From Candidatus Gastranaerophilales bacterium (lineage in GTDB: Bacteria; Cyanobacteriota; Vampirovibrionia; Gastranaerophilales; Gastranaerophilaceae), in the NCBI GenBank assembly GCA_944324475.1, contig CALUWK010000013.1, forward strand, positions 1 through 43,031: a stretch of DNA of 43,031 nt, read 5' to 3'. Shown here piece after piece: positions 32,258-33,725 of this stretch. Below the pieces are notes generated by a model that was not told the origin of the DNA, ran no database searches, and saw only the letters and a list, made by a program, of their open reading frames with translations. How positions within the stretch are numbered: the first letter of the stretch is position 1; every line of letters begins with the position of its first letter. Made by a program: the position numbers and the translations under genes.

Positions 32258-32285
32258 TTGAAAATATATTTTTATATGTTAGAAT
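32258..32285 (+). promoter_or_regulatory. Promoter just after mutS
   Basis: TTGAAA (32258-32263) and TAGAAT (32280-32285) are 16 bases apart, with TGT in front of the -10 (extended type). The predicted start is around 32291-32293, a few bases before an ATG at 32296. Confidence 0.6.
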
Positions 32286-32295
32286 TAATTTTGTT

Positions 32296-32367
32296 ATGAA
32301 TAATTTTTTGGTTATAGATATTTTTCATATACATCACCATAGCATCCCAAGAAGGTTGCGTTTTTAG
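32296..32367 (+). CDS. Candidate leader peptide with clustered His codons
   Basis: A 23-codon ORF starts a few bases after the predicted transcription start. It reads MNNFLVIDIF, then HIHHHS, then IPRRLRF and stop. Four of five consecutive codons (32326-32340) are His. No Shine-Dalgarno site precedes it, as with the leaderless genes elsewhere here. The His cluster overlaps one arm of a 9-bp helix, and the codons that follow overlap another pairing arm, so translation could affect the RNA fold downstream. Whether it is translated is unknown; AT-rich DNA gives short ORFs by chance. Confidence 0.4.
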   Translation: MNNFLVIDIFHIHHHSIPRRLRF

Positions 32368-32454
32368 TGATGTATTGATGTTCAATTCTTATTAAAATGA
32401 CACCTTCTTGGGATTTAGCTTTTTGAAGGTGTCATTTTGTTTAGTTAAGAATTG
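32329..32454 (+). promoter_or_regulatory. Switch-like leader RNA: mutually exclusive helices ahead of the gene at 32463
   Basis: Four perfect pairings are visible. P0: 32329-32337 with 32367-32375 (9 bp). A:B: ATCCCAAGAAGGT (32344-32356) with 32402-32414 (13 bp). B:C: AAAATGACACCTTC (32394-32407) with 32425-32438 (14 bp), followed by TGTTTAG, a terminator. Outer: CAATTCTT (32383-32390) with AAGAATTG (32447-32454), the last base pairs touching the ribosome-binding site GGAG. A:B and B:C share 32402-32407, so both cannot form. This is the layout of an antiterminator and terminator. The trigger is unknown. An sRNA ending at the terminator is an alternative. Confidence 0.55.
32394..32444 (+). terminator. 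Strong terminator hairpin of the leader
   Basis: A perfect 14-bp stem (32394-32407 with 32425-32438) around a 17-base loop, followed by TGTTTAG. It lies between the leader promoter and the gene at 32463, so it must be passed for that gene to be expressed from this promoter. Confidence 0.8.
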
Positions 32455-32462
32455 GAGATAAT

Positions 32463-33725
32463 ATGTCATTTGTAAATATAATATCAGCCCTAGGTAATAA
32501 TAACAGTGTTTACCCTTTAATTGTAAGAGATTGTGGAATTGAGAATTTTGCTAAGTGCATTATGACTTATAAGCAAAATGCCAAAGAATCTAAATTTATT
32601 GCTCGTCAAGCTACGAGAGAAAGAATAATAGATGAGTATGGAACGTCTGCTGTGTGGCTTGGTGGAATTCCGTTAATGAAATTTATATCGGATAAAATTA
32701 TTGATTCAAAAGGTTTATGTTCAAAAGTAGATATACGATTATTTAATGAGACAAAAAATCAAGGTTTGAATTTAAATATAAAAAAATTTACTTCAGTTGC
32801 TTCAAGTGCTGTGAGTGATTTGGTAAAAATAGAAAAGAATAAAAATTTATATAAAAATCTTCAAGTTGGTAAATTTTTTCTCTCAACAGCTATTCCTATT
32901 GCAGTTATGGGTTTTTTTTTACCAAAGTTTAATTTTTCTTTTACAAAAAAGAAAATGGAAAAATTAAAAAAAGAAAATAACAACCAAATTTCATTTAAGA
33001 CAAAAAAAATTGATGAATTTTTAAAAGCTTCTAAAAATGATTCTAAAATTAATTTTTGTGGAGTGGATAAATTTTTAAATTTGTCAGATGTAAATTGTAT
33101 GATGATTTTGGATGGCGGTTTGACTGCAGGAAGGATAAAAACGTCAAGAAACAAAAAAGAAAAGTGCGAGATGGCTTTCAAAATGGCTGCAATGTTTTAT
33201 TTGAATTATTTTGCTCCTAAAAAAATAGATAAATTTTTAAATAATTTAACTAAAAAGATTTTTGGTTTAAATACTTCTTTGGACGTAAAAACATTGAGTG
33301 ATAAGAATTTTTTAAATGAAATTAAGAGTAATTTATTAAAATTGCCAGAAGGTTTTGATGAAAAAAGTGTATTAGATTTTATAGACAATAATCCTAATTC
33401 ATCTTTTGTTGAGCAAATAAAGAAAATGAAATTAGTTTCTTTTTTGGAAAATAATATCAGAGATCCAAGAAAATATGTTGAAGTGGAAAAAATAAATTCT
33501 TATAGAAAAGCGATTGATGAATTTAGTGCAGATGCTTTGAATTATGGTTCAATAGAAAAATATGCAAAAAAGGCATTCAGGGCAAAAAGTTTTAATGTTA
33601 TCGCAAATGTTATAATAAGCAGTTTTTTACTTGCGGTTGTTTTGCCAAAATTACAATTTTTATTTAGAAAAATTACTACAGGTTCTAATTTGGATCCTGG
33701 AATTGTCGATAATGATAAAAAATAA
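32463..33725 (+). CDS. Unrecognised membrane protein with a repeated helix-LPK motif
   Basis: 420 residues; I do not recognise the family. It has a soluble N-terminal 130 residues (AKCIMTYKQNAKESKF, RERIIDEYGTSAVWLGGIPLM) and a membrane helix at about 138-157 (FFLSTAIPIAVMGFFLPKFNF). A Lys-rich, probably cytoplasmic region of about 220 residues follows, then a second helix at about 379-403 (VIANVIISSFLLAVVLPKLQF). Both helices end LPK-x-x-F, then a basic run, so the protein looks like two related membrane units around a linker. The ATG has GGAG six bases upstream. Its expression probably depends on the leader at 32258-32462. It converges with manC, the stops being one base apart. Confidence 0.8.
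   Translation: MSFVNIISALGNNNSVYPLIVRDCGIENFAKCIMTYKQNAKESKFIARQATRERIIDEYGTSAVWLGGIPLMKFISDKIIDSKGLCSKVDIRLFNETKNQGLNLNIKKFTSVASSAVSDLVKIEKNKNLYKNLQVGKFFLSTAIPIAVMGFFLPKFNFSFTKKKMEKLKKENNNQISFKTKKIDEFLKASKNDSKINFCGVDKFLNLSDVNCMMILDGGLTAGRIKTSRNKKEKCEMAFKMAAMFYLNYFAPKKIDKFLNNLTKKIFGLNTSLDVKTLSDKNFLNEIKSNLLKLPEGFDEKSVLDFIDNNPNSSFVEQIKKMKLVSFLENNIRDPRKYVEVEKINSYRKAIDEFSADALNYGSIEKYAKKAFRAKSFNVIANVIISSFLLAVVLPKLQFLFRKITTGSNLDPGIVDNDKK

Follow-up and report, generated by a model that had tools for sequence, protein, structure and literature searches.

Gammaproteobacteria are known to use histidine attenuators, and some Firmicutes have been predicted to do so (PMC9413887; PMC1183508). The attenuators predicted in the Bacillus cereus group, Peptostreptococcaceae, and Erysipelotrichales contain three to five His codons together with an antiterminator and a terminator, and the genes behind them are those of the his operon and/or of a hisZYX transporter that stands alone; forms of attenuator that mask the ribosome-binding site have been described as well (PMC9413887). 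In the cys operons of Actinobacteria, leader peptides with cognate codons occur without an obvious terminator, and the mode of regulation has been called unknown (PMC1262725).

A search of the open-access literature found no report of leader peptides or of histidine regulation for Gastranaerophilales or Melainabacteria. Candidatus Gastranaerophilales are non-photosynthetic cyanobacteria of the gut, and to our knowledge this gut-dwelling order has hardly been cultured. We analyzed a stretch of 43,031 nucleotides from one such bacterium (contig CALUWK010000013.1; the whole stretch is called the window here), in which a gene that we call X is very probably controlled by a ribosome-mediated histidine attenuator. 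Like hisL of the E. coli and Salmonella his operon (RF00514), the leader of X has a short ORF with consecutive His codons and mutually exclusive RNA folds, with a terminator before the structural gene and a stalled ribosome favoring expression. Several features set it apart from hisL: RF00514 matches it neither in sequence nor in structure, the 5' arm of the antiterminator (arm A) is part of the ORF and follows the His codons directly, the leader ORF seems leaderless, and the target is the single gene X instead of the his operon.

The likeness to the predicted Firmicutes attenuators (PMC9413887) consists of a His leader peptide combined with an antiterminator and a terminator, whereas the phylum is another one, the sequence of X shows no relationship to known histidine transporters, and the system is found almost only in genomes of one order that lack the histidine synthesis genes. 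One clade of related leaders, with peptides ending in PKGLGVL, resembles the Actinobacteria cys leaders in having cognate codons and no obvious terminator, but differs from them in that an anti-Shine-Dalgarno segment and a competing fold are identifiable. Histidine attenuation as such is known; more novel are the target family and the paralogue of X that has a leader with Arg codons.

Layout of the leader of gene X

An earlier sequence-only reading of this region had described an extended -10 promoter, a 23-codon ORF rich in His, and two competing helices of 13 and 14 bp, all of which lie at the positions listed here.

32258..32285, + strand: promoter, with -35 TTGAAA (32258-32263), a TG extension, and -10 TAGAAT (32280-32285), read as TG.TAGAAT
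32296..32367, + strand: leader-peptide ORF of 23 codons, MNNFLVIDIFHIHHHSIPRRLRF
32326..32340, + strand: sensor codons CAT ATA CAT CAC CAT (His-Ile-His-His-His), four His in five codons
32329..32337, + strand: arm D, over the His codons, 9 bp with D'
32344..32356, + strand: arm A, 5' arm of the antiterminator, encoding IPRR and starting 18 nt past the first His codon
32367..32375, + strand: arm D', partner of D
32381..32391, + strand: arm E, 11 bp with the Shine-Dalgarno region (32446-32456), kept in the leaders of the genus
32394..32414, + strand: arm B, comprising the 5' arm of the terminator (32394-32407) and the 3' arm of the antiterminator (32402-32414)
32425..32442, + strand: arm C, 3' arm of the terminator (32425-32438), with the U-tract TTTTGTTT (32435-32442), which overlaps the terminator stem in part
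32446..32457, + strand: arm E' and the Shine-Dalgarno GGAG of gene X (32454-32457)
32463..33725, + strand: gene X, a 420-aa membrane protein without a known domain and a candidate histidine-acquisition protein

Both long helices, the 13-bp A:B (32344-32356/32402-32414) and the 14-bp B:C (32394-32407/32425-32438), are perfect and compete for the common bases 32402-32407. The 9-bp helix overlapping the His codons, also part of the earlier description, was found as D:D' (32329-32337/32367-32375) and is largely retained among the leaders of the genus; with arm A in its loop, it may form a pre-emptor hairpin. The pairing to the ribosome-binding site that had been claimed is present too, not with the 8 bp given for it but with 11 bp including one G-U (E:E'), and it extends into the GGAG at 32454-32457. 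As a terminator, B:C is somewhat unusual: its loop spans 17 nt, and its U-tract is modest and lies partly within the stem, and for these two reasons it is not listed by a standard terminator scan, which allows loops of up to 8 nt.

In the mechanism that we propose, RNA polymerase would start near 32292, and a ribosome would immediately enter the 23-codon leader ORF. If charged tRNA-His is scarce, the ribosome would pause on one of the first two His codons (32326/32332), leaving arm A free to pair with B; since B is then unavailable to C, no terminator would form, and X would be made. If histidine is ample, the ribosome would reach the stop codon (32365) and cover arm A, B would pair with C, and transcription would end near 32440, while the B:C fold could extend through E:E' and hide the ribosome-binding site of X. 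From this arrangement we infer ribosome stalling at the leader as well as termination in the cell.

Conservation, covariation, and predicted fold states

An independent scan of GTDB genomes gave 164 relatives, mostly Candidatus Gastranaerophilales or Melainabacteria MAGs and many of them from gut or rumen; 80 loci were kept, and addition of the window made 81 leaders. A His-rich mini-ORF is found upstream of the X orthologue at all 80 related loci across the order, 70-250 nt before the gene, and consequently in 81 of 81 leaders with the window counted. At least four His within seven codons are present in 73 of the 81, and the remaining eight have three, while among 1,837 controls, which were stretches of the same length taken from these loci, three His occurred in 10 and four in none. 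Conservation of the His codons, proposed in the sequence-only reading as a check, is thus seen across the order. At genus level, X orthologues occur in 14 of 28 genomes and are preceded by a His-rich mini-ORF in all 14. When the window's own genome was searched with the pattern CAYNNNCAYCAYCAY (His mini-ORF with the same spacing), eight sites were returned, only one of which, the window site, lies within a matching leader ORF. In the 19-kb surroundings of hisD in 14 genomes, no leader with at least four His in seven codons was detected, so the his genes there showed no sign of this attenuator. The residues flanking the His run vary (HIHHHSIPRGL, HHHTHTNPKGLGVL, HLHHHINLKRL, HHLHHHSGLGRL, HHHNHHHCH, and HHLHHLHNIPKGL), from which it follows that the constraint is on the His codons and the following pairing arm and not on one DNA sequence.

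The leader ORF is probably translated, as judged from its start region. An SD-like 4-mer precedes the mini-ORF in 49 of the 81 leaders, where a promoter-like -10 box of the TGnTAnnAT type typically lies about 17-21 nt upstream with the SD-like motif in between. In most of the other leaders, the -10 box is located 6-10 nt from the ATG of the mini-ORF; this includes the window and its clade, in which the box is of the same type. Such a short distance would result in a leaderless or nearly leaderless message, which is probably the case for the leader ORF of the window.

Covariation was measured on 10 aligned leaders of the genus, with slid pairings as controls. For A:B, 92.3% of the cells are paired (37-63% in the slid controls), four pairs have changed on both sides, and the covariation value is 0.253 (0.04-0.17 in the controls). 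The corresponding values for B:C are 91.9% paired cells (controls 38-56%), five pairs changed on both sides, and a covariation of 0.238 (controls 0.04-0.14). Across all 81 leaders the mean A:B helix score was 29.9, compared with 17.4 for shuffled sequences, and 70 of the 81 leaders scored above all 20 of their own shuffles, with A and B being selected as the best helix in the same way in real and shuffled sequence. The arms also covary over the order, as illustrated by the A/B pairs CCCAAGAAGG/CCTTCTTGGG, CCCGAAAGGGCT/GGCTCTTTCGGG, CCTTGGAAGGCTAT/ATAGTCTTTCAAGG, and CCTGAAAAGGCTGT/ACGGTCTTTTCAGG. Judged from these alignments, both helices are under selection, and the compensatory changes, which had been suggested beforehand as a check, together with the conserved His codons strongly support the attenuation layout that had been read from the window.

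The spacing between sensor and arm A bears on the logic of the switch. Counted from the start of the first His codon, arm A begins 15-29 nt downstream in 75 of the 81 leaders, with a mode of 20; relative to the last His codon, it most often starts 5 nt after. In toeprints, the leading edge of the ribosome lies about 12-13 nt beyond the first base of the A-site codon. A ribosome that waits on the first His codon would therefore end just short of arm A and leave it free for antitermination. The first His codons would be the sensor; under starvation, the ribosome is expected to halt at the first of them that it reaches. When the RNA 3' of the ribosome was folded with the transcript ending at 32440, a ribosome waiting at 32326 gave a predicted P(A:B) of 0.98 and one at 32332 gave 0.89, while a ribosome at 32335, at 32338, or at the stop codon gave a predicted P(B:C) of 0.99. 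In the model, it is the position of the ribosome on the His codons that decides between the folds, and the logic of attenuation is predicted to be classical. The sequence-only reading had argued for an inverted logic, in which a stalled ribosome hides the antiterminator arm and favors termination; hiding is indeed predicted at the third and fourth His codons, but not at the first and second, where arm A stays free, and the inversion fails. Among the leaders with a U-tract, 26 of 30 are predicted to switch in the same direction as the window. The equilibrium model also prefers A:B without a ribosome (0.94), unlike the E. coli picture, which means that transcripts would read through in the absence of translation unless D:D' forms first.

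The output is a predicted terminator in the window and in many of its relatives. A clear terminator is absent from several leaders, which counts against the attenuator reading. In the clade with peptides ending in HxNPKGLGVL, the U-tract is missing, and the Shine-Dalgarno sequence AAAGGAG has a possible pairing partner in segments such as CTCCTTT. For most leaders of this clade, the fold with a stalled ribosome is predicted to open the Shine-Dalgarno sequence relative to the free RNA (from 0.01 to 0.58 in L068, 0.01 to 0.87 in L093, and 0.01 to 0.91 in L087); L064, L065, L067, and L074 are exceptions without such an opening. Mutually exclusive antiterminator and terminator helices, both with compensatory changes, are found in the genus, and a terminator or Shine-Dalgarno pairing is predicted beyond it. 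The apparent change of output between clades would then be the rewiring of one sensor.

Two other explanations of the leader were weighed against attenuation. If the His peptide itself were functional, for example in metal binding or regulation, the RNA helices would be secondary; His runs can bind Zn or Ni, and the His run is the most conserved feature of the peptide. Outside the run, however, the sequence varies freely, the residues that come after it follow the A:B pairing, the spacing from the first His codon to arm A is nearly fixed, and X tracks the loss of hisD and hisG (see next section), which a metal model does not predict, so that we consider this explanation very unlikely. Even less credit can be given to a ligand-binding riboswitch or a T-box that senses histidine or another metabolite next to an incidental ORF. 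Competition between antiterminator and terminator and the strongly conserved core within the genus would fit such an RNA, yet the SD-like motifs at the mini-ORFs speak against it, as do the loops and arm sequences, which differ across the order. An Rfam scan of the whole window at the gathering score returned only a tRNA, with no riboswitch and no T-box, and nothing sensible was added at a relaxed E-value. A ligand riboswitch was rejected: the conserved core consists of codons and two helices, and comparison across the order did not reveal a conserved aptamer. This also leaves the earlier idea of a ligand-sensing RNA or small RNA without support. The RF00514 His_leader model gave no match in the window, L002, L068, L107, or L118, while the E. 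coli hisL control scored 131.6 bits. The leader had been assigned to an unknown class; it very probably belongs to leader-peptide histidine attenuation, though outside the Rfam His_leader family.

Gene X and the loss of histidine synthesis

Within the genus (28 genomes), HisD is absent from 13 of the 14 genomes with X and present in 13 of the 14 without X (Fisher p 1e-5), and HisG shows the identical pattern. In a sample of 192 genomes of the order, HisD was found in 2 of 120 genomes with X and in 53 of 72 without it (p 1.5e-28). Here, six weak matches (E 1e-63 to 1e-83, other families) were scored as being without X because they resemble a paralogue of X (paralogue b, see below); if they are scored as X, HisD is present in 8 of 126 genomes with X. 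Three genomes, G007, G181, and G103, have both X and his genes. G007 and G181 have their his genes in a compact operon, whereas in G039, the one typical genome examined, hisG is not on the contig of hisD; this difference suggests that the his genes were acquired later in both exceptions. The best MutS tree of the genus shows five changes for X, few of which are well supported; as a result, only two independent pairs fall on well-supported branches and a sign test has no power. Both states are seen in at least three genera of the order sample (g1, g27, and g33).

The association with lost histidine synthesis, combined with the His sensor, makes X a probable histidine-acquisition protein of bacteria that are auxotrophic for histidine. 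The sequence-only reading had objected that an unrecognized membrane protein is not a histidine gene; since X tracks the loss of HisD and HisG, this objection was not upheld. Attenuator leader peptides name the amino acid that is served by their gene, and in this way a probable histidine role can be given to a family without recognizable relatives. Because of the association with lost histidine synthesis, the prediction on X is directly testable.

The protein itself gives few clues. Neither X nor its alignment had any match in sequence searches of Pfam, NCBIfam, and PDB, and by these searches X does not belong to the known histidine transporter families (ABC HisXYZ and YuiF permease). Its predicted structure is all-helical and confident (mean pLDDT 83.6, pTM 0.76), a Foldseek search with the model found no match at E<=0.001, and the VIA-align Z values stay below 8, a level that is common among unrelated helical models. 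Only about two segments are strongly hydrophobic. No conserved neighbors of X were found, and the gene stands alone in many contexts.

Given the attenuator, it is fairly likely that X imports histidine or secures it otherwise. The alternative is that the histidine attenuator is real while X serves another need during histidine or protein shortage, for instance envelope remodeling or peptide capture. That X is unrelated to known transporters and has few clear membrane segments and no conserved neighbors would agree with such a role, which we regard as possible but less likely on account of the tight tracking with the loss of histidine synthesis. A second point against it is that a paralogue with an Arg-codon leader occurs in a genus without argG, which argues for a family serving particular amino acids.

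Two features of the X sequence were observed in passing. Residues of about 145-158 and 386-402 form two similar membrane segments ending in LPK.NF and LPK.QF, which suggests an internal duplication. Furthermore, a motif like NFTG/SFSG/SFCG is found at residues 196-200 and also close to the N-terminus of several Gastranaerophilales proteins that look unrelated, with neighbors in L101, L107, and L115 among these sites; it may be a sorting or processing signal.

Paralogue b and its leaders

A paralogue of X, here called b (G000:C11; L202, also L192-L219), is about 27% identical to X and present in all 28 genomes of the genus. About 230 nt upstream of it, 23 of the 28 genomes encode a leader peptide with tandem Arg, '..LIRRxxxFxERGLVYVPIKKD-stop', followed by a terminator-like hairpin, and in many of them a pairing arm starts about 17-23 nt past the first Arg codon. 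Of the 28 genomes, 27 lack ArgG. This leader looks like an arginine attenuator parallel to that of histidine.

Directly before paralogue b (G000:C11:43333-43353) there is a second mini-ORF with the nearly invariant end '..VQRLMNLIWGL-stop'. Its distance to the gene is about 20-30 nt in the genus, and it is found in 99 of the 192 order genomes with one copy each. Many synonymous codon changes are seen in this mini-ORF, the end of which looks like a nascent-peptide arrest sequence.

Tentatively, and with somewhat more doubt than confidence, we propose that X and b form a new Gastranaerophilales family of membrane proteins for amino acid acquisition. Each would be under an attenuator of its own codons (His for X, Arg for b), b would in addition be under the arrest-type NLIWGL-stop leader, the loss of a pathway would be accompanied by a family member whose leader matches it, and the His leader of one clade would have moved its output from a terminator to Shine-Dalgarno sequestration.

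Finally, one region (L147, G007:C9:24500-43500) belongs to the sole genome of the genus that has argG. The his genes are there too, as a compact operon in that stretch of the contig, and the genome keeps both X and paralogue b; the region may be an island that restored both pathways.
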